DNA of 12,534 bases from NCBI GenBank assembly GCA_020851615.1, contig JADZCL010000186.1:1-12534 (forward strand). The letters run 5' to 3'. Position 1 is the stretch's first letter. Each line of letters starts with the position of its first letter. The notes below the pieces were generated by a model. The model did no database searches, was not told the DNA's origin, and was given only the letters and a program-made list of their open reading frames with translations. Made by a program: the position numbers and the translations under genes. Below, in pieces: positions 1 through 12,534 of this stretch. This DNA is from Rubrivivax sp. (GTDB lineage: Bacteria > Pseudomonadota > Gammaproteobacteria > Burkholderiales > Burkholderiaceae_C).

Positions 1-93
1 GACAAGCGCGAGAGCGAGAAGAAGAAGGACTGGGAACGCGAGAAGGGGCGGCTGATGCGCCACAAGATCTCCGGCCCCAAGGCCGGCGGCTGA
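1..93 (+). CDS. smpB: SsrA-binding protein SmpB, C-terminal end (5' truncated by window)
   Basis: Only the last 30 codons are present, starting DKRESEKKKDWEREKGRLM and ending at TGA 91-93. A lysine/arginine-rich tail with the DKR...DWEREK...LM pattern is the conserved C-terminus of SmpB. SmpB binds tmRNA (SsrA) and brings it to stalled ribosomes for trans-translation; its basic tail enters the empty mRNA channel. After the conserved helix come a few extra small residues (ISGPKAGG). The gene is convergent with metC, with only 25 bases between the stop codons. The call rests on this short tail alone, but the pattern is distinctive. Confidence 0.85.
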   Translation, partial: DKRESEKKKDWEREKGRLMRHKISGPKAGG

Positions 94-102
94 ATACCGG
101 CC
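71..102. terminator. Candidate terminator between convergent smpB and metC
   Basis: CCGGCC (71-76), GGCCGG (81-86) and CCGGCC (97-102) can pair in two alternative ways: a 6-bp stem with a CCAA loop, or a 6-bp stem with a 10-base loop. The element overlaps the smpB stop codon and sits just beyond the metC stop. There is no T-run on either side, so a classical intrinsic terminator is not proven; GC-rich hairpins between convergent genes are suggestive only. Confidence 0.3.
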
Positions 103-118
103 GTGCCACGCGCCGCGC

Positions 119-1282
119 TCAAGCCAGCTTGCGCAGCGCCTGCTCCAAGTCGGCCTGCAGGGCTGCAACCGACTCCAGGCCGATCGAGAAGCGCACCAGC
201 GAGCCGGCGTAGGCCCTGTCGCCACGCATGGCCTTGAGGTCGTAAGGCACGGCCAGGCTCATCGGCCCGCCCCAGGAATAGCCGATTCCAAACAGGGTCA
301 GTGCATCAACGAAGGCATCGACCTGCGCCTGGCTGTAGCGCGCATCGAGCATCACCGAGAACAGGCCGGCGGCGGAACTGCACAGGCTCTTCCAGTGCGC
401 ATGTCCGGGGCAGGACTCGAAGGCCGGGTGCAGCACCCGCGCCACCTCGGGCCGCGCACCCAGCCATGCAGCAAGCTGGCGCGCCGTGGCGTCGTGGGCG
501 GCGTAGCGCACGCCGATCGAGGGCAGCGAGCGCAGGATCAGTTCGGCGTCGTTGGCGGCCACGCCCAGACCCAGGTGCATGTGCGTGAGCTTGAGGCGCT
601 CGTGCAGCGTCGCGTTGCGCGTTGTCACCGAGCCCATCAGCACGTCTCCACCACCGGAGGGAAACTTGGTGAGCGCCTGCATGACGATGTCGATGCCGAG
701 GTCGAACGGCCGGAACGCCAGGCCGGCCCCCCAGGTGTTGTCCAGCGCCGTCGTCACGCCACGCGCCTTTGCCGCGGCAACGAGGTTGACGAGGTCAGGA
801 AACTCCATCGTGACCGAACCTGCGGCCTCGAGCCAGACGAGCTTGGTCGCCGGCGTGATCATGAACGCCAGGGCGGCGGCATCCATCGGGTCGTAGAAGC
901 GGTGCGCGATGCCCCAGCGCAGCAGTTCGTTGCGCGCCAGTTCCCGGCTGGGCCCGTAGACGTTGTCGGGCAGCAGCACCTCGTCGCCGCTGGCCAGCAG
1001 CGCCTGGTCGACGAGCGCGATCGCGGCCAGGCCGCTGGGTGCCAGCACGCACTCGCTGCCGCCCTCCAGCGCCGCGAGTCGTTCCTCGAGCAGGAAGGTG
1101 GTGGGCGTGCCGTGCAGACCGTAGGTGTAGCCGCTGCGGCTGCGCCAGTCGCGGTTGCGCATCGCCGCCACGGTCGGGAAGAGCACCGTCGAAGCCTTGT
1201 GCACCCCCGCCTGCGGCGCGCTGAAGCCCTCCGGCGGACGATAGGGATGGTGGATCAGCGGGGTGATGTCGAATTCGCTCAT
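119..1282 (-). CDS. metC: Cystathionine beta-lyase (PLP-dependent)
   Basis: A 387-residue protein of the Cys/Met-metabolism PLP family (fold type I). Such enzymes cleave cystathionine to homocysteine, pyruvate and ammonia in methionine synthesis, in the cytosol. Visible features: YGLHGTPTT at 54-62 (E. coli MetC has YGRRGT here), the PLP-binding aspartate in DNTW (181-184), the Schiff-base lysine in QALTK (Lys206), the SVTMEFPD segment (156-163) and the late SWGG motif, all typical of MetC rather than MetB. The loop after the lysine reads PSGGGD instead of GHSD, and the phosphate-contacting Arg of the E. coli enzyme (Arg58, from memory) is Leu56, so it is a subgroup variant. I chose the ATG at 1282 (MSEFDITPLI); the frame stays open upstream to 1390, but that would overlap rimO and looks unrelated. 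No strong ribosome-binding site is seen. It lies 55 bases after rimO on the same strand. Confidence 0.88.
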   Translation of the reverse strand: MSEFDITPLIHHPYRPPEGFSAPQAGVHKASTVLFPTVAAMRNRDWRSRSGYTYGLHGTPTTFLLEERLAALEGGSECVLAPSGLAAIALVDQALLASGDEVLLPDNVYGPSRELARNELLRWGIAHRFYDPMDAAALAFMITPATKLVWLEAAGSVTMEFPDLVNLVAAAKARGVTTALDNTWGAGLAFRPFDLGIDIVMQALTKFPSGGGDVLMGSVTTRNATLHERLKLTHMHLGLGVAANDAELILRSLPSIGVRYAAHDATARQLAAWLGARPEVARVLHPAFESCPGHAHWKSLCSSAAGLFSVMLDARYSQAQVDAFVDALTLFGIGYSWGGPMSLAVPYDLKAMRGDRAYAGSLVRFSIGLESVAALQADLEQALRKLA

Positions 1283-1337
1283 GGCAGGCGGCAGACGGTG
1301 AATGCGGAAAGACGGGCGGGGTCCTGACACGGACGCT

Positions 1338-2765
1338 TCAAACCGGCACGCCCACGAGGTCATGCCCCTGGGCACGGACGATACGGGCACGCGTGAACTC
1401 GCCGACCTTCAGGGTCTTGCTCGCCTTCTCGGGCGGCAGCAGGTGGACGATGCCGTCGATCTCGGGTGCGTCGGCATAGCTGCGGCCGCGCCCGCCCTTG
1501 CGGCCCAGCGCCGGTGCGTGGTCGACGAGCACCTGCATCGTGGCGCCGACTCGCCGCTGCAGCCGCTGCGCCGACACCTCTTCGGCCACCGCCATGAAGC
1601 GCGCCCGGCGCTCCTCGCGCAGCGCCTGCGGCAACTGGCCGGGCAGATCGTTGGCCTGTGCGCCGGCGACCGGGGAATACGCAAAGCAGCCGGCACGGTC
1701 GATCTGCGCCTCGCGCATGAACTGCAGCAGGTACTCGAACTCGGCTTCGGTCTCGCCGGGAAAGCCGGCAATGAAGGTCGAGCGCACGACCAGTTCGGGG
1801 CAGGCCTGGCGCCAGGTCGCCAGGCGCTCGAGGTTGCGCTCGCCGCTGGCGGGTCGCCTCATCCGCGCCAGCACGTCCGGGTGTGCGTGCTGGAAGGGCA
1901 CGTCAAGGTAGGGCAGGATGCGCCCGTCGGCCATCAGCGGCAGCACCTGGTCGACATGGGGATACGGGTAGACGTAGTGCAGCCGCACCCAGGCACCATG
2001 CCCCTGTGCCAGCGCAGCCAGCGCCTCGCACAGCTCGAAGAGGCGCGTCTTCAGGGGTCGCCCGTCCCAGAAGCCGGTGCGGTACTTGAGGTCCACACCG
2101 TAGGCACTCGTGTCCTGGCTGACGACGAGCAGTTCCTTCACGCCCGACTCGAACAGTGCCCGCGCTTCGGCCAGCACGTCGCCGATCGGCCGCGAGGCGA
2201 GTGGGCCGCGCAGGCTTGGGATGATGCAGAAAGTGCAGCCGTGGTTGCAGCCTTCGCTGATCTTCAGGTAGGCGTAGTGCCGCGGCGTGAGCTTGATCCC
2301 GGCGACACCGCGGAACTGCGCCCGCGCCGCAGGCACGAGGTCGACGAAGGGGTCGTGCGGCTTGGGCACCGCACGATGGACCGCATCCATCACTTCCTGC
2401 GTCGCGTGCGGGCCGGTGACCGCCAGGACCTTGGGATGCACGTCCTGCACGAGCGTGCCGCCGGCCTGGCCCGGCTTGGCACCCAGACAGCCGGTGACGA
2501 TCACACGACCGTTCTCGGCCAGCGCCTCGCCGATGGTGTCCAGGCTCTCCTTCACCGCCTCGTCGATGAAGCCGCAGGTATTGACGATGACGAGGTCCGC
2601 GCCCTGCAGGGTCTTGCTCGTCTCGTAGCCCTCGGCACGCAACTGCGTGACGATCAGCTCGGAGTCGGTCAGCGCCTTGGGGCAACCCAGCGAAATGAAA
2701 CCGACCGTCGGCGCACGCACCGGCACTTGGGGCACGCCGGCCTGCAAAGTCTCGGGAGAAGGCAT
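1338..2765 (-). CDS. rimO: Ribosomal protein S12 methylthiotransferase RimO
   Basis: A 475-residue radical SAM methylthiotransferase, the normal length for RimO, which adds a beta-methylthio group to the conserved Asp of ribosomal protein S12. The N-terminal MTTase domain carries its three cluster cysteines in SLGCPK (Cys28), NTCGF (Cys64) and TGCLG (Cys93). The radical SAM domain has the CxxxCxxC motif in [10 protein letters not shown] (Cys173, Cys177, Cys180). The last ~75 residues look like the TRAM domain that docks on S12. The early SLGCPK...DSE and IPSLRG signatures favour RimO over MiaB. The frame stays open to 2846, but the residues before MPSPETLQ are low-complexity and would overlap phaR, so I start at the ATG at 2765. 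The gene follows phaR by 77 bases and precedes metC by 55, so the three may be cotranscribed. Confidence 0.95.
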
Positions 2766-2788
2766 GCCCCGATTGTCGGTGATCGCGT

Positions 2789-2824
2789 GCCCGGGGCCGG
2801 GCCCTTCCTGCGCGCAAGGCGCAG
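2789..2824 (-). other. Two small GC-rich hairpins in the phaR-rimO gap
   Basis: GCCCGG/CCGGGC (2789-2794 and 2797-2802) and CTGCGC/GCGCAG (2808-2813 and 2819-2824, 5-base loop) lie between the phaR stop and the rimO start. Neither is followed by a T-run. They could attenuate or stabilise a phaR-rimO transcript, or simply reflect base composition. Confidence 0.2.
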
Positions 2825-2842
2825 CGCCAGCCCGCCCTGCCC

Positions 2843-3424
2843 TCACTCCCCCTTGCCCGCAGGCGGGAAGCCCGGCACGCCGGGAAAGAGCACGCCCTTG
2901 TGCAGTTGCTCCTGCATCTTGTCGAAGAGGGCCCGTGACTGCTCGAGGTAGGGTCCCATCAGGCCTTGCATCAGCGGGGCCTGGGCGCCCATGAACTGCG
3001 ACCAGAGCTCGGGGGTGAAGGCCTTGGGATCGCCCAGGCCCTTGCCCTGTGCGGCCATGCGCTGCTGCAGGTCGGCGAAGGCACGCAGGTTGTGCTCCAT
3101 GAAGCCGCCCATCATCCCCTGCATGGCGTGGCCGTAGAAGCGAATGATCTGCGCCAGGGTCTGCGTGCTGAACATCGGCACGCCGCCGGATTCCTCTTCC
3201 AGGATGATCTGCAGCAGGATGCTGCGCGTGATGTCCTCGCCGGTCTTGGCGTCACGTACCTCGAAGTCCTCCATCGCAAGCACCATCTTCTTCACGTCGG
3301 CCAGCGTGATGTAGCTGCTGGCCCGCGTGTCGTAGAGGCGTCGATTGGGGTACTTCTTGAGCACGCGCACGTCGCTGGCCGGAGTCTCGAGGCCGGGTTC
3401 CGGCTTGCGGCGGGTGGCGGACAT
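2843..3424 (-). CDS. phaR: Polyhydroxyalkanoate synthesis repressor PhaR
   Basis: A 193-residue regulator of PHB granule formation. Residues ~19-80 form the PHB/PHA accumulation regulator DNA-binding domain, with the signature [11 protein letters not shown] (23-33) and the SYITL...V...V(R)D...GEDITR pattern. Residues ~83-125 match the PHB accumulation domain ([13 protein letters not shown]...GGFME). The C-terminal part is rich in Met, Gln and Phe, as in granule-contacting PhaR proteins. In characterised relatives PhaR represses the phasin gene phaP and itself, and is titrated off DNA by PHB granules. The start ATG at 3424 has a good GAGGAG site nine bases upstream (3434-3439). The gene heads the phaR-rimO-metC run. 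phaC, phaA, phaB and phaP are not in this window, though bdhA lies 8 kb away. Confidence 0.95.
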
Positions 3425-3433
3425 GCGATGGGG

Positions 3434-3461
3434 CTCCTCGGGGCGTCGGCGGGCAATTCTA
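3434..3461 (-). promoter_or_regulatory. phaR ribosome-binding site and candidate -10 box
   Basis: Read on the minus strand, TAGAAT (3461-3456) matches the sigma-70 -10 consensus at five of six bases, and GAGGAG (3439-3434) is a good Shine-Dalgarno nine bases before the phaR ATG. Transcription would start near 3449, giving a ~25-base leader. No convincing -35 is found (best 3/6 with a 16-base spacer), so the promoter is tentative while the ribosome-binding site is solid. Confidence 0.4.
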
Positions 3462-3485
3462 GGAGCGCCCTCTGCGGCTCACGCA

Positions 3486-3529
3486 CGGGGAGTTACCCCG
3501 CTGCAGCTGCGCCTCTGATCTTCATCAGA
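3486..3529 (-). terminator. Candidate terminator hairpins at the end of the pga-like operon
   Basis: Two inverted repeats follow each other: TCTGAT/ATCAGA with a 4-base loop (3514-3519 and 3524-3529, overlapping the pgaA-like stop codon) and CGGGG/CCCCG with a 5-base loop (3486-3490 and 3496-3500). They lie upstream of the predicted phaR -10, where a terminator would be expected. No T-run follows either. Confidence 0.25.
3500..3510. promoter_or_regulatory. TGC-rich palindromes upstream of phaR, possible PhaR operator
   Basis: GCTGCAGC (3500-3507) and GCAGCTGC (3503-3510) are overlapping perfect palindromes about 50 bases before the predicted phaR transcription start. PhaR of Paracoccus denitrificans is described as binding TGC-rich sites of the form CTGC-N3-GCAG and as autoregulating. 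The site here is TGC-rich but does not have that exact spacing, so this is only a candidate. Confidence 0.2.
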
Positions 3530-5291
3530 ACCAGACGTTGGCGCTGAGGTTGATGTAGCGCCGCCAGTAGCCGGTGCCCCCGCCGCTGCCCGCAGCCACG
3601 CCCAGGCCTTGCCCTGAGCCGCCCGCGGCCAGGCGCAGGCGCAGTTGCGGCGCAAGGTCCCAGCCCAGGCCGATTTCCCAGAGATGTGGCGAGCCATGGC
3701 TGCGGCGGCCGCTGCCGTCGGTCTCGCTGGCCGTTCCCAGGCCGATGCGTGCCTGCACGTCAAAAGGCCGAAACTCGTGCGTCAGCGCCGCGTAGAGGCG
3801 GCCCTCCACGTAACGCTCGGGGTTCCAGTAGCCGCGATCGATCTGCGGATCTCCGGAGACACGCTGGAAGCCCATGCCCTCCACACCCACGGCCACGCGG
3901 GGTCGCGCCAGCAGGCGCCGTTCGATGCGACCGGCCGCCCGCAGGCGCGTGCTGCCGTCATCGAAACGCAGCACGGCTGCCGAGCCGGCATAGACCCACA
4001 GCGGATCGGGACGAGCCTCGACGCCTGCCGAGACGGTGTCGACATGGACGCGGTTGGACACCGCGCGGGGTGCCTCGACGAGTTCACGCGCGGCTTCGGC
4101 ATCGACACGCCAGCCGTCATCGGGCACCCAGCGCACCCGCGCACTCGCCGTGACCGGATTCCAGTCCGGAAAGTGCGTGGCCTTCAGCGCCACGGTGGGC
4201 CACCAGGTGCCACTGGCGCTGTCCGGTTCGCCGATGCGCCAGCCGTACACGCCCTGGATCTGCGTGGCCCGCGGCGTGCCGAAGGCGTCATCCAGATGCA
4301 GTCGGCGCAGTTGCAGCTCGAGCGTCGAGCCCGCGCGCGGATGCCAGCCGGCACCGATGGCCAGCGCGTCGGCTTCCAGCCGGTCGCGGTCCTCGGCGTG
4401 CTCGAGCGTCAGGTAGCCATAGGGGCGCACTTCCCGCCGCACACGGTAGTCACGCAGCCAGGCGGCCTCGGCATCGGTGGGCTCGACCAGGAGCGGCAAG
4501 GCCCGATCTTCGTAGCCCGCCCAGCGCCAGGCACGGGCAAGGTCGGCGCGCTCACCCGGATGCGTCGGCGCCGCCTGCGCAAGAAAACCGCGCAGCGCCG
4601 CCCGATGCTGCCCGTTGAAGTTGCGCGCGTTGGCCAGCGCCCAGGCCAGGTCGCGATCAGCGGGCTGCTGCGCGACCAGCGCCTGCAGCTCGCGGATCGC
4701 GCCGGCCTCGTCGCCATTCCAGAGCAGCGACATCGCATAGCGTCGATGCAGACGCACGACGCCCGGCGTCAAGGCATGGGCCTCGCGCAGCGCCTGCAGC
4801 GCGCCAGGCTGATCGCCCTGCGCCTGCCGGGCCTGGCCCAGTCCATCCAGCCATTCGGCGCGCCCGGCTCCGCGCGTTGCGGCAGCCAGCTCGGTGAACA
4901 TGGACGCAGCCGCCGCAGCGTCGCCGCCCCACAGGCTCTGCCAGGCCAGCGCCGGCAGCAGCTCGCTGCGTCGTGCCGGGGCCAGCACCAGGACCCGACG
5001 ATAGAGCGCCGCGGCCTGCGCATTGTGGTCGGCGTAACCGTTCACGCGCGCTGCCTCGACCAGCAACTCGACGTCGTCCGGATGGCGCTGCACGAGGCGC
5101 TCGAAGTCCGCCAGCGCCTGCGGCCAGGCCCGGTGCTCGGCCGCGGCACGCGCGCGGGCGCGCAACGCCGCGGTGGGGACTTCATCAGGCGCCGTGGCGT
5201 GGACCGGCGCGGCCACGGTTTGCGCCTGCGCCTGCGCCACCGGCACCAGCACCAGCCACAGCACGCCAAGCAGCGGACGTACCGTGCTCAA
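3525..5291 (-). CDS. pgaA: PgaA-like outer-membrane TPR/beta-barrel exopolysaccharide porin
   Basis: A 588-residue protein with a signal peptide (hydrophobic 6-18, cleavage near AQAQA, ~20-24), a helical TPR-like region (~40-270, repeats such as WPQALADFERLVQRHPDD) and a C-terminal ~300 residues of alternating amphipathic strands ending in a terminal Phe (NLSANVWF), the mark of a Bam-assembled beta-barrel. This is the PgaA architecture: a periplasmic TPR scaffold plus a porin that exports poly-N-acetylglucosamine. E. coli PgaA is ~807 residues with a barrel of similar size, so the TPR part here is about half length. The start is a TTG (5291-5289) whose last two bases overlap the pgaC-like stop (TTGA); no in-frame ATG is available, and the open frame further upstream is a shadow of pgaC. 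The next in-frame GTG is codon 10, inside the signal peptide. A BcsC- or other TPR-porin relationship is possible; the partner genes favour PgaA. Confidence 0.75.
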   Translation of the reverse strand: MSTVRPLLGVLWLVLVPVAQAQAQTVAAPVHATAPDEVPTAALRARARAAAEHRAWPQALADFERLVQRHPDDVELLVEAARVNGYADHNAQAAALYRRVLVLAPARRSELLPALAWQSLWGGDAAAAASMFTELAAATRGAGRAEWLDGLGQARQAQGDQPGALQALREAHALTPGVVRLHRRYAMSLLWNGDEAGAIRELQALVAQQPADRDLAWALANARNFNGQHRAALRGFLAQAAPTHPGERADLARAWRWAGYEDRALPLLVEPTDAEAAWLRDYRVRREVRPYGYLTLEHAEDRDRLEADALAIGAGWHPRAGSTLELQLRRLHLDDAFGTPRATQIQGVYGWRIGEPDSASGTWWPTVALKATHFPDWNPVTASARVRWVPDDGWRVDAEAARELVEAPRAVSNRVHVDTVSAGVEARPDPLWVYAGSAAVLRFDDGSTRLRAAGRIERRLLARPRVAVGVEGMGFQRVSGDPQIDRGYWNPERYVEGRLYAALTHEFRPFDVQARIGLGTASETDGSGRRSHGSPHLWEIGLGWDLAPQLRLRLAAGGSGQGLGVAAGSGGGTGYWRRYINLSANVWF

Positions 5292-6553
5292 GCCGCGCCC
5301 CCGGTCCGTGCGGTGCTCCAGCGCACGGCCTCGCGGGCGGGCGCCTTGAACAGATAGGGCAGCGCGCGTACCGTCGTCAGCGCCAGGAAGGCCCAGTAGA
5401 CCAGCGGATACCACACGGCGTAGGGCAGGAAGCGCACGATGCCGCGGTCGTAGCGGCGGTCGATCAGCACGCCCGTGAGCAATTGCAGCAGGCACAAGGT
5501 GGCGATCGCCATACCCCACAGGTTGGGGATCGGGGATGCGCCCACCGGGGGCAGGCCAACGGCATAGGACAGCGTCCACAGCGAGGCGAGGAAGACGAAG
5601 CACACCGACCACAGGATGGACAGCGAGGACTCGACGAACACCGGCCACAGGCGGCGGCTCTTCCAGGTCACCATCACGTCGGCATGCTTGCGCAGCACCT
5701 GCGCCAGCCCCCGCGCCCAGCGCAGCCGCTGGCGCCACAGGCCGCGCCAGGACAGGGGTACCGTCATCCAGCAGATCGCGCGCGGCTCGTAGCGGACGTC
5801 GTAGTGCCGCTTCTGCAGCTTCCAGGTCAGCTCGATGTCCTCGGTGGGCATGTTCGCGCTGTAGCCGCCGACGTCCTGGACCGCACTGCGCCGCAGGGCC
5901 GCGACCACGCCCGAGACCGTGACGATGCGGCCCCACACCCGCTGTGCCCGGCGCAGCAGGCTGATGATCGACGAGAACTCCACGGCCTGCAGCCGCGAAA
6001 GGAAGCTGCCGGTGTTGCGCACGCGCGGGTTGCCGGTGACAGCGGCCACGCGCGGTGAATCGAAGTGCGGCACGATGTAGCGCAGCATCAGCGGGTCGGG
6101 CTCGGCGTCGGCGTCCAGCCCCATCAGGATGTCCCCGCGCGCCAGCGGCAGCGCATCGTTGAGCGCCATCGCCTTGCCCTCGTTGGTGGCCTTGTGCACG
6201 ATGCGCAGCCGGGTGTCGGCCAGCAGCGGTTGCAGGGCGGCCAGCGTGCCGTCGGTGGAGCCGTCGTCGATGACGATGACCTCGAAGGCCGGGTAGTCCA
6301 TGCGCAGCATCGCCAGCACCGAGCGGGCGATGACGGCCTCCTCGTTGTGCGCGGGCACGAGCACGCTCACCAGCGGCCAGTCCCGCTCGCTGCGCTCGAT
6401 GGGTGCGGCGGCGGCATCCTCCCAGCGCAGGCGGAAGATCAACGCCGTGATCATCCACATGATGCTGGTCACGATGGGATAGGCGGCAAAGAAGGCCAGC
6501 ACCAGCGCGTACGGCCAGCTGTGCTGCACCGCGTAAAGCCAGGACTCGATCAT
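5288..6553 (-). CDS. pgaC: PgaC-like poly-beta-1,6-N-acetylglucosamine synthase (GT2)
   Basis: A 421-residue processive family-2 glycosyltransferase of the inner membrane; E. coli PgaC is ~441. Two membrane segments at ~12-40 precede a cytosolic catalytic domain and about three more follow at ~305-400. Catalytic signatures are intact: SVLVPAHNEE (63-72), DDGSTDGT (96-103), the metal-binding DAD (147-149), the base motif TED (237-239) and QRLRW (275-279), the QxxRW motif of processive synthases. The family uses UDP-GlcNAc to build beta-1,6-GlcNAc chains and needs PgaD and, in E. coli, c-di-GMP. The start ATG (6553) overlaps the pgaD-like stop in ATGA, with a modest GAGAG upstream. The linkage and sugar made here cannot be told from sequence alone; hyaluronan- or chitin-type synthases share these motifs, but the PgaD and PgaA partners point to PNAG. 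Confidence 0.92.
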   Translation of the reverse strand: MIESWLYAVQHSWPYALVLAFFAAYPIVTSIMWMITALIFRLRWEDAAAAPIERSERDWPLVSVLVPAHNEEAVIARSVLAMLRMDYPAFEVIVIDDGSTDGTLAALQPLLADTRLRIVHKATNEGKAMALNDALPLARGDILMGLDADAEPDPLMLRYIVPHFDSPRVAAVTGNPRVRNTGSFLSRLQAVEFSSIISLLRRAQRVWGRIVTVSGVVAALRRSAVQDVGGYSANMPTEDIELTWKLQKRHYDVRYEPRAICWMTVPLSWRGLWRQRLRWARGLAQVLRKHADVMVTWKSRRLWPVFVESSLSILWSVCFVFLASLWTLSYAVGLPPVGASPIPNLWGMAIATLCLLQLLTGVLIDRRYDRGIVRFLPYAVWYPLVYWAFLALTTVRALPYLFKAPAREAVRWSTARTGGAA

Positions 6554-7050
6554 GAAACGCTCTCGGTGAGCCGCACCGCCGGTTGCGGCAGGCGGTCCGC
6601 ATCGACAAAACGCTTGCGCGAGCCGTCGACGACGATGTCCACGCGCCTGGCCTGCGCCAGTGCGGTCCAGTCGGCCTCGATGGATCGACCGTTGAAGTCG
6701 GCCTCGTAGCGCACCTCGACCACTGGCACGCTGCGCCGCGGCCCCTTGCGGCGATGGATGCCGACGTTGTGGGCCACCCAGGCCAGCGTGAGCAGGGGCA
6801 CCACGATCAGCGCCCCCATCATCAGCCAGCGCAGTTCACCCAGCTCGGGTCGATCCGCGGTGACGCGTTGCCAACTCCAGGCGAACAGCACCCATCCGGC
6901 CAGCACCAGCAGCGTGTGCCACACCCTCTGCCGCAGCGACAGCGGCGCCTGCGCCGGCTTTCGTCCGACCTGCCCACGGGGGCCGGCGGCTGCGGCGGCC
7001 GTGGCCGCCGCCGCGGGCCTGACCGACCGGGAGGAGTCGGGATTGATCAT
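6550..7050 (-). CDS. pgaD: PgaD-like inner-membrane accessory protein
   Basis: A 166-residue protein with an Ala/Pro-rich N-terminal tail, two transmembrane helices (~44-60 and ~75-95) preceded by the LRQRVWHTLLVLAGWVLFAW stretch, and a basic, then mixed, cytosolic C-terminal domain (~96-166, containing ALAQARRVDIVVDG). Size and two-helix topology fit PgaD, which in E. coli (137 residues) joins PgaC to form the c-di-GMP-responsive polymerase. Sequence conservation in this family is low, so position directly before pgaC carries part of the call. The start ATG (7050) overlaps the stop of the PEP-CTERM gene (ATGA) and has no clear ribosome-binding site, so translational coupling is likely. The cytosolic tail is longer than in E. 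coli. Confidence 0.8.
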   Translation of the reverse strand: MINPDSSRSVRPAAAATAAAAAGPRGQVGRKPAQAPLSLRQRVWHTLLVLAGWVLFAWSWQRVTADRPELGELRWLMMGALIVVPLLTLAWVAHNVGIHRRKGPRRSVPVVEVRYEADFNGRSIEADWTALAQARRVDIVVDGSRKRFVDADRLPQPAVRLTESVS

Positions 7051-7922
7051 CGACTCGGGCGTCGCCGGGTACCGGCCACAAGGGCCAGACCCAGCGCCAG
7101 CAAGGCCGGCAGTGCGGGCTCCGGCACGAGGTGGGCGATGTGGTCGACCGGGACCAGCTCCCAGGCCCCGCCGTCGCGCGACCACCGCAGGTCGACCACC
7201 CCCGCACCCAGGCGGTTCCAGCTGCCCAGCTCGAAGGCGTACAGCCCCTCGGAGAGCAGCAGGTCGTCCGTGAAGCCCTGGCGGTCACGCGGATTCAGGA
7301 AGTCGCGCCCCATGTCCAGCGCCCCGTCGGCTCCGATGAGCCGGAAGAAGAAGCCGTCGTCGAAGAGGACGCTGAAGTTGTAGCTGCCGGCATCGGTGAT
7401 GCGGATGAGGCCGTTGAACGCCGTCGCCCAGTTCATCTGGTCGGCGGCACCCGCCTCCTTGTCGCTGCAGGGAATGCCCGTCACCGTGTTCGTGAAGAAG
7501 GGGCTCAGGTCCGCGGCGCCCCAGGTGCCCGCATAGCATTCGTTGTAGCGCGCGTTGCCGAAGTTGATCTGGTCAACGACGCCCGACCACTGCTGCACGG
7601 GTGTGGACGCACCGGCCATCACCTGATCCCAGTCGGCGCGACCCCACAGGCCGCTGCCCCAGCCAAAGCCGCCGATTGCCGTCCCCTGCCCGTAGGCCTT
7701 GGCGTCCTCGTCCCACAGGACCTGGCTGCCGTGCCAGGCATTGTCGACGCGGCGGAAGTCGGCTTGCGCCCCGGCTTGGGTGGCGACCGCCCCGGTATAG
7801 AGCGGATTGAAGGTGATGGGCGCCGCGACCGCCGGGCCTGCCACCAGCACCGCGCAGGCCAGCACACGCGCCGCGAGGGTGACAAGTCGGGGCGCCGGGA
7901 GACGATTCGATTGAAGCAGCAT
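7047..7922 (-). CDS. PEP-CTERM sorted secreted protein with PA14-like domain
   Basis: A 291-residue secreted protein. It has a signal peptide (hydrophobic 14-29, cleavage after AVAA, residue 34) and at the C-terminus a full PEP-CTERM sorting tag: VPEP (266-269), a hydrophobic helix (~270-284) and the basic end TRRRPSR. Such tags are recognised and cut by exosortases, and are known to co-occur genomically with exopolysaccharide loci. Residues ~165-262 resemble a PA14 beta-barrel: GLIRITDAGSYNF, the VLFDDGFFFRLIG strand, LLLSEGLYAFEL and VVDLRWSRDGG...LVPVDHI. PA14 domains often bind carbohydrate. Cys129 and Cys152 are the only cysteines in the mature part and could form a disulfide. I start at the ATG at 7922, which gives a normal signal peptide; no good Shine-Dalgarno precedes it, and a GTG at 8033 in the same frame adds unrelated residues. 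It is the first gene of the operon and overlaps pgaD by four bases. Confidence 0.85.
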   Translation of the reverse strand: MLLQSNRLPAPRLVTLAARVLACAVLVAGPAVAAPITFNPLYTGAVATQAGAQADFRRVDNAWHGSQVLWDEDAKAYGQGTAIGGFGWGSGLWGRADWDQVMAGASTPVQQWSGVVDQINFGNARYNECYAGTWGAADLSPFFTNTVTGIPCSDKEAGAADQMNWATAFNGLIRITDAGSYNFSVLFDDGFFFRLIGADGALDMGRDFLNPRDRQGFTDDLLLSEGLYAFELGSWNRLGAGVVDLRWSRDGGAWELVPVDHIAHLVPEPALPALLALGLALVAGTRRRPSR

Positions 7923-7932
7923 GGTGTGGCTT

Positions 7933-7959
7933 GTTACTGTTTGCAACAGATGTCGTAAC
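7933..7959 (-). promoter_or_regulatory. Nested inverted repeat in the leader of the PEP-CTERM gene
   Basis: GTTAC (7933-7937) and GTAAC (7955-7959) are inverted repeats enclosing a second pair, CTGTT (7937-7941) and AACAG (7945-7949), with TGC between. In the transcript this gives a 5-bp stem with a 3-base loop, extended by a 4-bp stem across a one-sided bulge. It ends 11 bases before the start codon, where a ribosome-binding site would normally lie, and is AT-richer than its surroundings. It could be an operator or a translational control hairpin. Confidence 0.25.
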
Positions 7960-8181
7960 CTTACAGGAGCGTCCCGTGTCCGATCGGCCCTGCACCCCCC
8001 GACTTGAGCGTAAACCCGACATGCATCCGCCACCGCCGTGAAGGACGCACGCGTGGCCAGCCGCAGCGGATCGGATCAGGAGAAGTGGCGACCGCACGTG
8101 TGGACATGGCGCAAGACTAGCCGGCCAAACTGCCCGCGTCGCTCAGGGAACGGCTGAATCGCGCTGGGGCTGCACACACGC

Positions 8182-8200
8182 GCGAGCACTTTCGTGCCGC
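8182..8200 (-). terminator. Hairpin with GNRA loop downstream of relA
   Basis: On the minus strand GCGGCAC (8200-8194), loop GAAA (8193-8190), then GTGC-T-CGC (8189-8182) forms a 7-bp stem with a single bulged T. It lies about 30-50 bases beyond the relA stop. No T-run follows; it could be a 3' end stabiliser or a weak terminator. Confidence 0.3.
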
Positions 8201-8231
8201 GGTGCACGCCCGCGCAAGCCGGTGATCTCCT

Positions 8232-10499
8232 TCAGCGCCGGCGCGCCTTGCCCACGCCGGCCACACGGGCAACCGCACGCAGCGCGTGTGCGATGCGGCC
8301 GGCATCCTCGGCCTCGACCGTGAAGACCATGCGCGCGCTGGCGCCATGCGGGCCGCGCTGCGACTGGGTGTTGACCGCCGTCACATTGAGGCGCTCCTTG
8401 GCGAAGACCTCGGAGATGTCACGCAGCAGGCCCTGGCGGTCCTCGGCCTCGACCAGCACATCGACGGGATAGACCGCCCGCCTGTCGCCACCGGGCACAG
8501 CACCCCACTGGACCTCGATCTCGCGCCCGGGAAAGCGCTCGGCCATGTGCCGGAAATTGCTGCAGTCCCGGCGGTGGATGGCCACTCCCTTGCCGCGCGT
8601 GACGAATCCACCGATCGGGTCCGGCGGCGCGGGCCGACAGCAGCGTGCCAAGGTCGTCATCAGGGAACCGACGCCCACCACCAGCACGCCGCCGCCGCCC
8701 TTGTCGCTGCGCACGCGCTTGAGCAGGGGGGCCTCGGCTTCCGCCCCTTGCACCGGCGCCGGGCGCAGGAGGTTCTCGATGTTGCGCAGCGAGTATTCGT
8801 CCTTGCCGACGACCTCGAACAGCGCCTCGGCCGACTTGAAGCCCAACTGCTCGGCCAGGTGCTCGAGCTTGAGCGCGGTGCGGCCTTCCCGCTGCAGCAG
8901 CTTCTCGACCTGCTCGCGTCCACGCGCCAGCGTCTGCGCCAGCGCCTGGGCGTTGAACCACGCCCGCACCTTGGCGCGCGCACGCGGGCTCTGCAGGTAG
9001 TGCAGCTCCGGATTGAGCCAGTCCAGCGAGGGCCCACCGTCCTTGGCGACGATGATGTCAACCGTCTGGCCGTTGGCCAGGGGCGTACTCAGCGGCACCA
9101 TTGCCCCATCCACCCGCGCACCGCGGCAGCGATGGCCGAGGTCGGTGTGCAGCGTGTAGGCGAAGTCCACCGGCGTTGCGCCCGCAGGCAGGTCGATGAG
9201 CGCGGCCTGCGGCGTGAAGACGTAGATGCGGTCGTCCAGATCGACGCCGACCGCCGGCTCGGCCTGCGCCGATGGCGGCGAGGCCGTCGTGCCCCGGTGC
9301 TGCGTGCGGCTGAAGTCCCGCTCCCAGGCCAGCAGCTCGCGCAGCACCGCCTTGCGCGCATCGGCCAGGCGCTGCTGGTAGGCCCCGCTGGCGGCCACAC
9401 CGCCAGGGCCGCGCGTGCCGGCCTCCTTGTACAGCCAGTGCGCGGCCACGCCGTACTCGGCGTGATCGTGCATCGCGCGGGTGCGGATCTGCACCTCGAG
9501 CGGGCGCCCGTCCTGGCCATGCACCACCGTGTGCAGCGACTGGTAGCCGTTGGCCTTGGGGCGGGCGATGTAGTCATCGAACTCGCCCGCGACCGGCGTG
9601 TAGGCCTCGTGCACGCGGGCCAGCGCCGCGTAGCAGGCCGCGGCGTCCTCGACGATCACGCGCAGCGCGCGCACGTCGAAGACGCGCTCGAAGGACAGGC
9701 CCTTGCCCTGCATCTTCTTCCAGATGCTGTAGAGGTGCTTGGGCCGACCCAGCACCTCGGCACGGATGCGCGCATCGGACAGCAGTGCGGCCAGGTGCTG
9801 GCGCGCCTGCTCCACACCCTGCTCGCGCTCGGCGCGCTTCTGGTCGACCAGCTGCGCCATGTGGCGATAGGCCTGCGGGTCCAGGAAGCGGAAGGCCAGG
9901 TCCTCCAGCTCCCACTTGATCTGCCAGATCCCCAGGCGATTGGCCAGCGGCGCGAACACGTCCTGCGACTCATGGGCCAGCTCACGCGGGCACTGGCGCT
10001 TGCTGGCGGCGAACCAGCGCAGCGTCTGCAGCCGCGAGGCCAGACGCAGCAGGACGACCCGCAGGTCGCGGCCAAAGGCAAGCAGCATCTTGCGCACGCG
10101 CTCGGTCTGCTGCGCGCGCGCGGCCCCGCCGATCGCCGCGTCGCGCGCGGCACGCTGGATCTGCACCAGCTGCCGCGTCAGCATCACCAGGCTGGCGTTG
10201 GATGGCCCGAATGCCCGTGCGATGACCTCCTGCGGGCGTTGCAGGTAGTCGCTCGCGTAGACCAGATAGGCCGCCGCCTGCATGCCCGGGGCAGCGCCGA
10301 TCGCCGCCAGGATGCCTGCCACCCCGTCGGCATGCGCGAGCGCCTCCTCGCCCGAGCCGCGCACCTGCCCGGACAGCAGGGGTTCGGCAAAGGCGCGGGC
10401 GCGCTGCAGCGTCTGGGCGCCCTCGGCCGCGGCCACGGTATCGGTCAGCTGGACGATGGGTGCCGCCAGCGCCTGCGCCTCGGCCACACCGGTCTTCAT
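8232..10499 (-). CDS. relA: GTP pyrophosphokinase RelA ((p)ppGpp synthetase)
   Basis: A 755-residue long RelA/SpoT homologue (E. coli RelA is 744). It makes (p)ppGpp from GTP/GDP and ATP when uncharged tRNA enters stalled ribosomes. The N-terminal hydrolase-like domain keeps the leading His (HADGVAGIL, 56-64) but lacks the paired HD motif, so it should not degrade ppGpp. The synthetase domain has GRPKHLYSIWKKMQ (251-264), YIARPKANGYQSLHT (310-324) and EVQIRTRAMHDHAEYG (335-350). The ExDD motif EFDD (306-309) is the RelA type; bifunctional SpoT/Rel enzymes have RxKD there. TGS spans ~424-485, a zinc-finger-like CC...DC segment ~615-650 and an ACT domain ~675-750. An AGGGGG site sits six bases before the ATG at 10499; a GTG one codon earlier (10502) is the alternative start. 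It follows the alpha/beta hydrolase by 45 bases on the same strand. Confidence 0.95.
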   Translation of the reverse strand: MKTGVAEAQALAAPIVQLTDTVAAAEGAQTLQRARAFAEPLLSGQVRGSGEEALAHADGVAGILAAIGAAPGMQAAAYLVYASDYLQRPQEVIARAFGPSNASLVMLTRQLVQIQRAARDAAIGGAARAQQTERVRKMLLAFGRDLRVVLLRLASRLQTLRWFAASKRQCPRELAHESQDVFAPLANRLGIWQIKWELEDLAFRFLDPQAYRHMAQLVDQKRAEREQGVEQARQHLAALLSDARIRAEVLGRPKHLYSIWKKMQGKGLSFERVFDVRALRVIVEDAAACYAALARVHEAYTPVAGEFDDYIARPKANGYQSLHTVVHGQDGRPLEVQIRTRAMHDHAEYGVAAHWLYKEAGTRGPGGVAASGAYQQRLADARKAVLRELLAWERDFSRTQHRGTTASPPSAQAEPAVGVDLDDRIYVFTPQAALIDLPAGATPVDFAYTLHTDLGHRCRGARVDGAMVPLSTPLANGQTVDIIVAKDGGPSLDWLNPELHYLQSPRARAKVRAWFNAQALAQTLARGREQVEKLLQREGRTALKLEHLAEQLGFKSAEALFEVVGKDEYSLRNIENLLRPAPVQGAEAEAPLLKRVRSDKGGGGVLVVGVGSLMTTLARCCRPAPPDPIGGFVTRGKGVAIHRRDCSNFRHMAERFPGREIEVQWGAVPGGDRRAVYPVDVLVEAEDRQGLLRDISEVFAKERLNVTAVNTQSQRGPHGASARMVFTVEAEDAGRIAHALRAVARVAGVGKARRR

Positions 10500-10544
10500 C
10501 ACCTGCCCCCTTCCGCCTTCATCCGCCGCGCCGGCAGTACCTGC

Positions 10545-11420
10545 TCAGGGCGCGAGCAGGAAGTCGCGCACCGCCTGCCGCTGCTCGGGCTGCACGAGCG
10601 TGGGTGCGTGCCCCACGCCGCTGAATTCGACCAGCCTGGCCTTGGGGCCGCGCGTGACCATGGCCTGCGCCGTCGCCGCAGAAAGCAGATCCGACTGCGC
10701 ACCGCGCAGCAACAGGACCGGCAGGCGCAGGCTGTCCCACGCCGCCCAGAGCGCGGCCTCGCCGGCGCGCACCAGCTCCGGCGTGATGGCCTTGAAGGGC
10801 ACCGCGATGGCCGGGTCGTAGTGCGGCCTGAAGCCATCGCCCTCGGCCACCAGTTGCGGGCGTGTCAAGGCCAGCCACTGCTCGCGCGAGTGCGGGCCAA
10901 AGCTCTGGCTGATGGCCCACAGCGCGTCGGCGGCCTCCTCGACCGTGCGCCAGCGCACCGCAGCGCCGATATAGGTGCCAATGCGCGCCAGCGCTGCCGG
11001 CTCGATCGCCGGCCCGACATCGTTGAGCACCAGGCGATGCAGCGGTGATCCAGCGAGCGCGGCCACGCCCAGGCCGATCAAGCCGCCCATCGAGGTGCCA
11101 ACCCAGTCCAGCTGCGTCGCATCCAGGCGCGCCAGCAGCGTCACCATGTCGGCAACGTAGGCCGGGATCGAGTAGCCCATCGGGTCAGCCAGCCAGTCGC
11201 TGCGCCCGCGACCGACGACGTCCGGGCAGACGACACGGTAGTGGCCGCACAGGTCCGCCGCCAGGGTGTCGAAGTCGCGGCCCTGGCGCGCCAGGCCGTG
11301 CACGCAAACCAGCACGCGCCCGTTGGACGGGTCGCCCCACTCCCAGTAGGCCATGCGGTGCAGGCCACGGGTGTCCAGGCACTGGACTTCGCGCAGGCGG
11401 GGTGATGCAGGCTGGCCCAT
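10545..11420 (-). CDS. Alpha/beta hydrolase, possibly a 3-hydroxybutyrate oligomer hydrolase
   Basis: A 291-residue cytosolic alpha/beta-hydrolase fold protein without a signal peptide. The catalytic triad is visible: nucleophile Ser110 in GTSMGG (108-113), Asp244 in the GAQSD turn and His271 in GVGHAP. HG (41-42) supplies the oxyanion-hole region and DVVGRGRSD (67-75) is the usual post-strand-4 motif. The family covers esterases, lactonases, C-C hydrolases and intracellular PHB oligomer hydrolases. It is divergent from bdhA with 60 bases between starts, and from memory PhaZc/PhaY2-type 3HB-oligomer hydrolases of Cupriavidus are also linked to 3HB dehydrogenase genes; I infer a similar role but sequence alone cannot prove it. 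The start ATG at 11420 (MGQPASPRL) is preferred; the frame is open to 11948, but that would run through bdhA. It has no good ribosome-binding site. Confidence 0.85.
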   Translation of the reverse strand: MGQPASPRLREVQCLDTRGLHRMAYWEWGDPSNGRVLVCVHGLARQGRDFDTLAADLCGHYRVVCPDVVGRGRSDWLADPMGYSIPAYVADMVTLLARLDATQLDWVGTSMGGLIGLGVAALAGSPLHRLVLNDVGPAIEPAALARIGTYIGAAVRWRTVEEAADALWAISQSFGPHSREQWLALTRPQLVAEGDGFRPHYDPAIAVPFKAITPELVRAGEAALWAAWDSLRLPVLLLRGAQSDLLSAATAQAMVTRGPKARLVEFSGVGHAPTLVQPEQRQAVRDFLLAP

Positions 11421-11441
11421 GATGCGTTGCAGTCTGAATTC

Positions 11442-11472
11442 GATAATGCGGGCATCGTAACCACAGCAGGAG
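11442..11472 (+). promoter_or_regulatory. bdhA candidate -10 box and ribosome-binding site
   Basis: GATAAT (11442-11447) matches the -10 consensus at five of six; 17 bases upstream ATGATG (11419-11424) is a weak -35 (3/6) that overlaps the start codon of the divergent hydrolase. AGGAG (11468-11472) is a good Shine-Dalgarno eight bases before the bdhA ATG. The leader would be ~27 bases. The whole divergent control region is only 60 bases. Confidence 0.4.
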
Positions 11473-11480
11473 CGCCCCGC

Positions 11481-12251
11481 ATGCTCAGCGCAAAGACCGC
11501 CCTCATCACGGGCTCCACCAGCGGCATCGGCCTGGGAATCGCGCTGGCCCTGGCGCAAAACGGCGCCCGCGTGATGCTCAACGGCTTCGGCGATGTCGAA
11601 GGCGCGCTGGCGCAGGCCCGCCGCCACGACCCCGGCGCCATCCACGACGGCGCGGACATGAGCCAGCCCGAGCAGATCGAAGCCATGGTGCGCCGTTGCG
11701 AAGCGGAGCTGGGCAGCTGCGACATCCTCGTCAACAACGCCGGCATCCAGCACGTTGCGCCGATTCCCGAGTTCGCACCCGAGCGCTGGGACGCGATCAT
11801 CGCGATCAACCTCAGCTCGGCCTTTCACGCCATGCGGGCTGCATTGCCGGGCATGCAAAGGCGCAACTGGGGGCGCGTCCTCAACGTCGCCTCGGTGCAT
11901 GGCCTGGTCGCCTCGGTGAACAAGAGCGCCTACGTCGCGGCCAAGCACGGCATCGTCGGGCTGACCAAGGTGGCAGCACTCGAGAACGCGACCACCGGTG
12001 TCACCGTCAATGCCATCTGCCCGGGGTGGGTGCTGACGCCGCTCGTGCAGAAGCAGGTCGATGCGCGCGCCCTCGCCGAGAGCGTCGACAACGACGAGGC
12101 CAAGCGTCGTCTGCTGGCCGAGAAGCAGCCCTCACTGCAGTTCACGACCCCCGAGCAGCTGGCCGCACTGGCCGTGTTCCTGTGCTCGCCGGCGGCCGAC
12201 AACATCCGCGGCACGGCGATCAACGTCGACGGCGGCTGGCTCGCCCAGTAA
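11481..12251 (+). CDS. bdhA: (R)-3-hydroxybutyrate dehydrogenase
   Basis: A 256-residue classical short-chain dehydrogenase that interconverts (R)-3-hydroxybutyrate and acetoacetate with NAD(+)/NADH in the cytosol, the step by which PHB breakdown products enter central metabolism. The nucleotide motif TGSTSGIG (10-17), NNAG (85-88), Asn110 and the catalytic Ser138-Tyr151-Lys155 are all present. The four residues that hold the substrate carboxylate in the Pseudomonas fragi enzyme (from memory Gln94, His144, Lys152, Gln196) align at a constant offset of four: Gln90, His140, Lys148, Gln192. The C-terminal signatures EKQPSLQFTTPEQL and NVDGGW complete a typical BdhA. The ATG at 11481 has an AGGAG eight bases upstream. 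It is the only complete plus-strand gene here and is divergent from the alpha/beta hydrolase. Confidence 0.96.
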   Translation: MLSAKTALITGSTSGIGLGIALALAQNGARVMLNGFGDVEGALAQARRHDPGAIHDGADMSQPEQIEAMVRRCEAELGSCDILVNNAGIQHVAPIPEFAPERWDAIIAINLSSAFHAMRAALPGMQRRNWGRVLNVASVHGLVASVNKSAYVAAKHGIVGLTKVAALENATTGVTVNAICPGWVLTPLVQKQVDARALAESVDNDEAKRRLLAEKQPSLQFTTPEQLAALAVFLCSPAADNIRGTAINVDGGWLAQ

Positions 12252-12256
12252 CGCCC

Positions 12257-12279
12257 GCCAGGCCCGGCCTGGGCCTGGC
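12257..12279. terminator. Strong hairpin between convergent bdhA and SIMPL genes
   Basis: GCCAGGCCC (12257-12265) and GGGCCTGGC (12271-12279) form a perfect 9-bp stem with a GGCCT loop, filling almost all of the 31-base gap between the two convergent stop codons. Symmetry lets it act in both directions. There is no T-run, but the position and the all-but-fully GC stem make a bidirectional terminator likely. Confidence 0.6.
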
Positions 12280-12282
12280 CGC

Positions 12283-12534
12283 TCAGCGCGCGGAGAGCTG
12301 CACGCTGCCGCTGACGCTGGCGCTCACGGTGGCCTTGCCGGCCTCGATCGGCAGCGCGCCCTCACCGGCGGCTGCCGCCGCCATCGCCATGCGCGGCATC
12401 GGCTGCATGGGCGGCAGGTCCACGCCCTGCACGGTCACCTCGCGCAACGCCCAGCCGGCAAAGCCGAACTGACGCGCCAGGTCGGCGGCGCGCTGCTTGA
12501 ACGCGGCCACCGCCTGCCCGGTGAGCTCGGCATC
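12283..12534 (-). CDS. SIMPL-domain (DUF541) protein, C-terminal part (5' cut by window)
   Basis: The last 83 residues of a protein whose start lies beyond the right edge; the frame is open to the final base. The segment DLARQFGFAGWALREVTVQG, then a Pro/Met/Ala-rich linker, then PIEAGKATVSASVSGSVQL is the characteristic end of SIMPL (DUF541) proteins, periplasmic or secreted proteins of poorly known role, some linked to oxidative-stress defence (YggE). The gene converges on bdhA. A GTG at 12510 could be read as a start but would cut off the conserved helix, so the gene is taken as truncated by the window. Confidence 0.8.
   Translation of the reverse strand, partial: DAELTGQAVAAFKQRAADLARQFGFAGWALREVTVQGVDLPPMQPMPRMAMAAAAAGEGALPIEAGKATVSASVSGSVQLSAR

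Follow-up and report, generated by a model that had tools for sequence, protein, structure and literature searches.

In Escherichia coli, the genes pgaABCD encode the glycosyltransferase family 2 (GT2) synthase PgaC of poly-N-acetylglucosamine (PNAG), its small membrane partner PgaD, the TPR/barrel exporter PgaA and the deacetylase/hydrolase PgaB. PgaB is a standard component of Gram-negative PNAG systems and has been linked with both export and the formation of a firm biofilm. Here we describe a pga-like operon of Rubrivivax sp. that lacks pgaB and is led by the gene of a PEP-CTERM protein with a predicted PA14-like fold (PEP-PA14 below). It lies on contig JADZCL010000186.1, of which positions 1 to 12,534 (12,534 nucleotides, called the window) were analysed. 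On balance, we favour the reading that the operon encodes a PNAG-type synthase and exporter and that pgaB has been replaced in it by the gene of a secreted PA14 lectin, which would retain an acetylated polymer.

A deacetylase mutant of Staphylococcus epidermidis sheds the fully acetylated polymer, suggesting that charge retains PNAG on the cells, and E. coli without deacetylase activity keeps the polymer in the periplasm (PMC6307706). In Bordetella bronchiseptica, a robust biofilm requires deacetylation, whereas transport across the outer membrane apparently does not (PMC5933820). A 2020 operon survey of environmental bacteria described a pga organisation with a rearranged pgaC and without pgaB and pgaD, possibly the same operons as those reported here; in the passages cited it names no partner gene for them, nor does the word 'exosortase' occur in its main text (PMC7112194). 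The PA14 lectin domain MpPA14, from the adhesin of Marinomonas primoryensis, binds N-acetylglucosamine (GlcNAc) with a Kd of about 150 μM via the 3,4-diol, the N-acetyl group adding a contact; the role of the DcisD pair in such lectins is described in the same paper (PMC8092209). In Aquincola, over-expression of a PEP-CTERM protein shifts polysaccharide from the soluble to the bound state, although several other PEP-CTERM genes gave no floc rescue and PepA had no part in biofilm formation (PMC9850573). Among the open-access papers searched, we found no report that joins PEP-CTERM with PgaC, PNAG or poly-N-acetylglucosamine, and none on pgaACD; PEP-CTERM and a PA14 domain turned up together only in one paper, on myxobacterial TraAB.

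The window is contig C186 of a draft assembly of 2.56 Mb (435 contigs, 75.9% complete). On its minus strand, from 7922 to 3525, genes for PEP-PA14 and for PgaD-, PgaC- and PgaA-like proteins follow one another with consecutive 4-base overlaps, exactly at the coordinates given by the original prediction, which had been made from the sequence alone and had noted the absence of pgaB (Table 1). No pgaB was found in the window, and the host assembly, at its 75.9% completeness, gave no match to PF14883 or TIGR03938. The operon shares with pgaABCD of E. coli the GT2 synthase, a small membrane partner in the PgaD role, the TPR/barrel PgaA and the operon layout. It differs in that PgaB is missing, the PEP-CTERM/PA14 gene leads and the order is PEP-D-C-A; moreover, the window PgaA is shorter and the window PgaD falls outside its Pfam model.

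PgaB and PEP-PA14 were compared in two sets of genomes, a family sample (200) and an order sample (399), with PgaC accepted at E ≤ 1e-90 and scoring limited, in each genome, to the 4 to 8 best candidates of a first look. PgaC was found in 14 genomes of the family sample, six of which had PgaB over the cut-off, while PEP-PA14 was present in the remaining eight. In the order sample, 35 genomes had PgaC; 30 had PgaB and the remaining five PEP-PA14. PgaB was above the cut-off in 29 of these 30, G500 being below it at 250 bits; the PgaB model was matched over about its first half only in G313, G413 and G500, and PgaB and PgaC lay on separate contigs in G413 and G558. When both samples were pooled (46 PgaC genomes, three shared), 34 had PgaB only, 12 had PEP-PA14 only, and none had both or neither (Fisher, 2.6e-11, relatedness being ignored).

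When the order sample was searched with the family alignment (best 5 first-look candidates per genome scored), five of the 399 genomes came up at E ≤ 1e-15, and these were exactly the five PEP-PA14 genomes. Alignment A2 includes rows of the window, G039, G111, G162 and G175, so that their matches in this sample are partly by construction; the single query P0001 alone had already recovered the latter four. Weak matches in G108 and G143 of the family sample were not counted: the proteins are PA14-like but of another kind, and neither genome has a PgaC match. Altogether, PgaB was over the TIGR03938 cut-off in 0/28 distinct PEP-PA14 genomes (0/20 for the window and the contig scan described below, 0/8 for further genomes, those of L134-L136 standing outside the count). 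The expectation that pgaB would be absent from these loci and genomes has therefore held. The possibility that PgaB was missed through incompleteness of metagenome-assembled genomes was rejected, as PgaB was found in 34 of the 46 PgaC genomes and missing from the 12 with PEP-PA14, and 45 of the 46 were at least 90% complete.

Nineteen loci were recovered when the contigs of the genome collection were scanned with the family alignment, named members including Rubrivivax benzoatilyticus and Azohydromonas sediminis. All 19 had PEP-PA14, pgaD and pgaC in this order, and pgaA came next in 18 (the contig of L017 ends there). The same gene order was seen in four further genomes of the order-wide sample (G424, G453, G482, G383) and, beyond the order, in three loci (L134, L135, L136). 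The word patterns of the scan were derived from the window's clade, so a second clade was invisible to it. In this clade (G162, G175, G111, G039) the order is PEP-PA14, pgaA, pgaC, pgaD, which is the E. coli order minus pgaB; in G039 the operon is split over two contig ends and pgaA is cut. Second-clade PgaC exceeded the TIGR03937 cut-off in 4/4 cases with over 580 bits (the G039 match contains one internal stop). The Pfam models of PgaA and PgaD were matched in L066 and that of PgaD in L067, and PgaA was about full length (830-residue frame). The PEP-PA14 protein of G162 is identical to a Rhodoferax koreense protein. With 19/19 loci, four order genomes, three loci outside the order and four genomes with the second gene order, the pairing is not unique to this strain, in line with the original prediction, and a strain-specific accident is ruled out.

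Some relatives were seen in other surroundings. In G761, no pga genes were found at distances up to about 9 kb from a second full-length lectin relative (L133:9327-10349); hence the lectin family exists outside the operon too. A weak match outside the order, L137 (56 bits), was likewise unlinked to pga genes. In L135 (4097-5518) and L136 (13163-14623), from genomes of one family, pgaA is closely followed by a second GT2-like gene in convergent orientation.

In a tree of 55 PgaC proteins, the PEP-type rows fell into two clades, both fully supported: one of 16 rows, on a long branch, and one of four, placed among rows of PgaB type. The tree needs two changes between PEP and PgaB type, and 0/200 bootstrap trees show one; a single origin is still compatible with the well-supported branches alone. 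The lectin thus occurs with two separate synthase lineages, and may have been adopted twice or transferred between operons. Neither this nor the genome-wide exclusion of PgaB had been foreseen. An exosortase was present in 12/12 PEP-PA14 genomes versus 13/34 PgaB genomes (Fisher, 1.4e-4), some of the 13 matches being weak or partial. Of the 20 genomes represented by the window and the scan, 19 had one as well (the exception is G214), the host's own lying at G000:C392 (E 2.8e-74). Over the 28 distinct PEP-PA14 genomes, 27 had the exosortase that the original prediction had anticipated.

The window protein has both a signal peptide and the C-terminal tail of the PEP-CTERM class, with PEP motif, hydrophobic stretch and arginines. 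Its motif scores were 15.9 for TIGR02595 (cut-off 16) and 15 for PF07589 (cut-off 20.7), the latter cut-off being exceeded by four second-clade relatives. PF07691 (PA14) was not matched by the window protein alone. It was matched at E ≤ 0.1 by 29 of 33 family members and by two of five other PEP-PA14 proteins scanned, one of them above the cut-off (L069, 24.2 vs 24); 16/80 second-clade homologues carry it as precomputed annotation. When the structure model was compared with the PDB by Foldseek, the top matches were PA14 lectin domains. The protein is accordingly modelled as a PA14-like β-sandwich, as had been expected. In the window protein, NCBIfam matches were confined to the C-terminal part, and in five relatives scanned they lay mainly there. 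The PepA model NF033554 reached 14.2 bits (cut-off 80). PepA, the flocculation protein of Aquincola, resembles the window protein in being a PEP-CTERM protein tied to polysaccharide held on cells, but only the sorting tail of the latter matches its model.

The motif DDG was invariant in the family (33/33 rows of alignment A1, 21/21 of A2) and aligned with the DDG of MpPA14; it is probably the DcisD calcium/sugar site of the PA14 fold. Unlike MpPA14, which is part of a 1.5-MDa adhesin, the window protein is small and is encoded in a polysaccharide operon; besides its sorting tail, it has its own conserved N-terminal region. The lectin proteins of L135 and L136 have DEG in place of DDG at the presumed calcium site. 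The lectin of L134 (9064-9939) ends in a VPLPA-CTERM tail (32.1 bits, cut-off 25.35) rather than PEP-CTERM; the operon pairing can therefore persist when the sorting tag changes.

According to the reading we favour, PgaC and the PgaD-like subunit would polymerise the chain, probably β-1,6-linked GlcNAc, and move it over the inner membrane, and the PgaA-like TPR/barrel protein would export it. As no deacetylase or hydrolase is encoded alongside, the polymer would stay acetylated and neutral. The tail of PEP-PA14 would be the signal for the genome's exosortase, and the protein would bind the emerging or exported chain, its DcisD calcium site engaging the free 3,4-diols of GlcNAc. It would thereby keep the neutral polymer on the cell or cross-link it in the matrix. 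From chemistry we infer that the 3,4-diol is free on every residue of a β-1,6-linked chain but not of a β-1,4 chain; given that MpPA14 binds the diol, a PA14 lectin would be well matched to acetylated PNAG. Whereas the PgaB route would hold deacetylated PNAG by charge, a calcium-dependent lectin would do so here. Binding or anchoring of the glycan and export in acetylated form, both suggested in the original prediction, are likewise points that we infer.

The PgaA-like exporter scored 36.6 bits with the barrel model PF21197 (cut-off 27) and failed the full-length TIGR03939 (52.8 vs 366.65). In its structure model (pLDDT 90.3), helical repeats are joined to a barrel with 16 main strands; the model matched E. 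coli BcsC, PelBC and the polysaccharide secretin 4y25, which we take to be the E. coli PgaA barrel. In one alignment, residues 38-127 and 186-346 of E. coli PgaA had little counterpart in the window protein. The TPR part in the window clade is thus shortened, as if its partner had changed. This would suit the main rival explanation, in which PEP-PA14 is a periplasmic stand-in for PgaB and, instead of holding the chain outside, directs it to PgaA or loads it there during export. The exclusion of PgaB without exception in 46 genomes also fits such a role, as do the binding of periplasmic PgaB to the TPR region (residues 221-515) of E. coli PgaA (PMC9384988) and the description of the PgaB C-terminal domain as critical for export (PMC5933820). 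We nevertheless consider a stand-in unlikely, because exosortases are described as taking PEP-CTERM proteins to the cell exterior (PMC12188702) and an exosortase accompanies these operons, and because PgaA is about full length in the second clade.

The window PgaC scored 418.9 bits with TIGR03937 (PgaC_IcaA), just below the cut-off of 422.3, the next NCBIfam model reaching 108; it has 152 identities with E. coli PgaC over 415 aligned residues. The PgaD-like protein matched neither PF13994 (PgaD) nor any other Pfam or NCBIfam model, and is named for its gene position, two hydrophobic segments (judged by eye) and an aligned asparagine. A sequence link between the window-clade PgaD-like profile and E. 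coli PgaD was not convincing (E 0.069 in a four-protein search). The asparagine, in the second hydrophobic stretch, was present in 20/20 family rows and aligns with N75 of E. coli PgaD, and R222 of PgaC was kept in 21/21 rows, the E. coli row included; both positions presumably matter for cyclic-di-GMP control. A PgaC under its curated cut-off and on a long branch, a divergent PgaD and a shortened PgaA might indicate that the window-clade polymer is not PNAG, that the lectin is matched to another glycan and that loss of PgaB merely reflects the different polymer. This seems rather improbable to us, as PgaC_IcaA is by far the top model, R222 and the asparagine are retained, and the second clade, with PgaC above the cut-off and the same lectin family, likewise has no PgaB.

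No CE4 domain was found near the operon in 29 PEP loci (470 kb) with a home-made profile, which recovered 22/22 loci of its test pool (14 had supplied seeds). In 15 of the 20 genomes of the window and the scan, the PgaB model gave matches below its cut-off, six being an unlinked CE4 protein (93-127 bits) and nine being weaker. Of the ten hits below the cut-off with E ≤ 1e-25 in the family sample, nine came from genomes that had no PgaC match. With no CE4 in the loci and such hits untied to PgaC, the operon is not regularly accompanied by a dedicated deacetylase; one may still act from elsewhere in the genome. That an unlinked CE4 enzyme deacetylates the polymer and PEP-PA14 is an extra matrix adhesin unrelated to PgaB loss has the six stronger and nine weaker matches in its favour, but we give it little credence, since a hit of 93-127-bit strength is absent from 14 of the 20 genomes, among them that of the window, no such hit lies near the operons and the family-sample hits are mostly apart from PgaC. 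An unlinked CE4 deacetylase is the best PgaB-like match of G204, G203, G202, G201, G200 and G216 (L031-L036). Judged by eye among the loci listed, the protein contains a LysM-like segment, and its gene has HAMP/kinase-like and TPR/LysM genes as neighbours.

A wider proposal, which we hold more tentatively than the lectin reading itself, is that Gram-negative bacteria have two routes of PNAG retention, charge (PgaB) or an exosortase-sorted calcium-dependent PA14 lectin, with one per genome, the lectin having been adopted twice or moved between operons. A consistent, exclusive swap of PgaB for a sortable lectin would, if true, mean that deacetylation is not the sole route, and a PEP-CTERM/exosortase substrate would gain a specific partner polymer. 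Direct tests are feasible in cultured strains such as Rubrivivax benzoatilyticus JA2 and Azohydromonas sediminis.

Table 1. Coordinates of the operon genes, their overlaps and features of the PEP-PA14 protein in the window
Feature	Position	Strand	Remarks
PEP-CTERM/PA14 lectin-like protein	7047..7922	-	291 aa, leading gene of the operon; ATG at 7922, stop at 7047
N-terminal signal peptide, residues 1-34	7821..7922	-	Putative, by eye; model shows helix 13-27
D188-D189-G190, probable DcisD calcium/sugar site	7353..7361	-	Conservation and alignment with MpPA14
PEP-CTERM sorting signal, residues 266-288	7059..7127	-	VPEP, hydrophobic stretch, Arg cluster; just below curated cut-offs
PEP-PA14/pgaD overlap, 4 bases	7047..7050	-	ATGA
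PgaD-like membrane protein	6550..7050	-	166 aa; present in 19/19 loci; invariant N aligns with N75 of E. coli PgaD
pgaD/pgaC overlap, 4 bases	6550..6553	-	Gene coordinates
PgaC-like glycosyltransferase family 2 synthase	5288..6553	-	421 aa; profile scores and E. coli PgaC alignment
pgaC/pgaA overlap, 4 bases	5288..5291	-	TTGA
PgaA-like exporter, TPR and 16-strand barrel	3525..5291	-	588 aa, TTG start; profile and structure model

A 27-base imperfect inverted repeat, GTTAC...GTAAC, lies at 7933-7959 of the window, 10 bases ahead of the lectin start codon. As a shared upstream operator it was rejected, being present in 0/19 other loci (L013 and L030 have little or no upstream sequence). A sigma-54 promoter before the lectin gene, as reported for PepA, was also rejected, no site clearly beating shuffles (home-made score, best 0.08 in L028). 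The operon is flanked by unrelated genes, encoding a RelA/SpoT protein upstream and PhaR, RimO and cystathionine β-lyase downstream. Two genes of polyhydroxyalkanoate metabolism are near it: that of the PhaR repressor directly downstream (2843-3424) and that of a 3-hydroxybutyrate dehydrogenase farther away (11478-12251).

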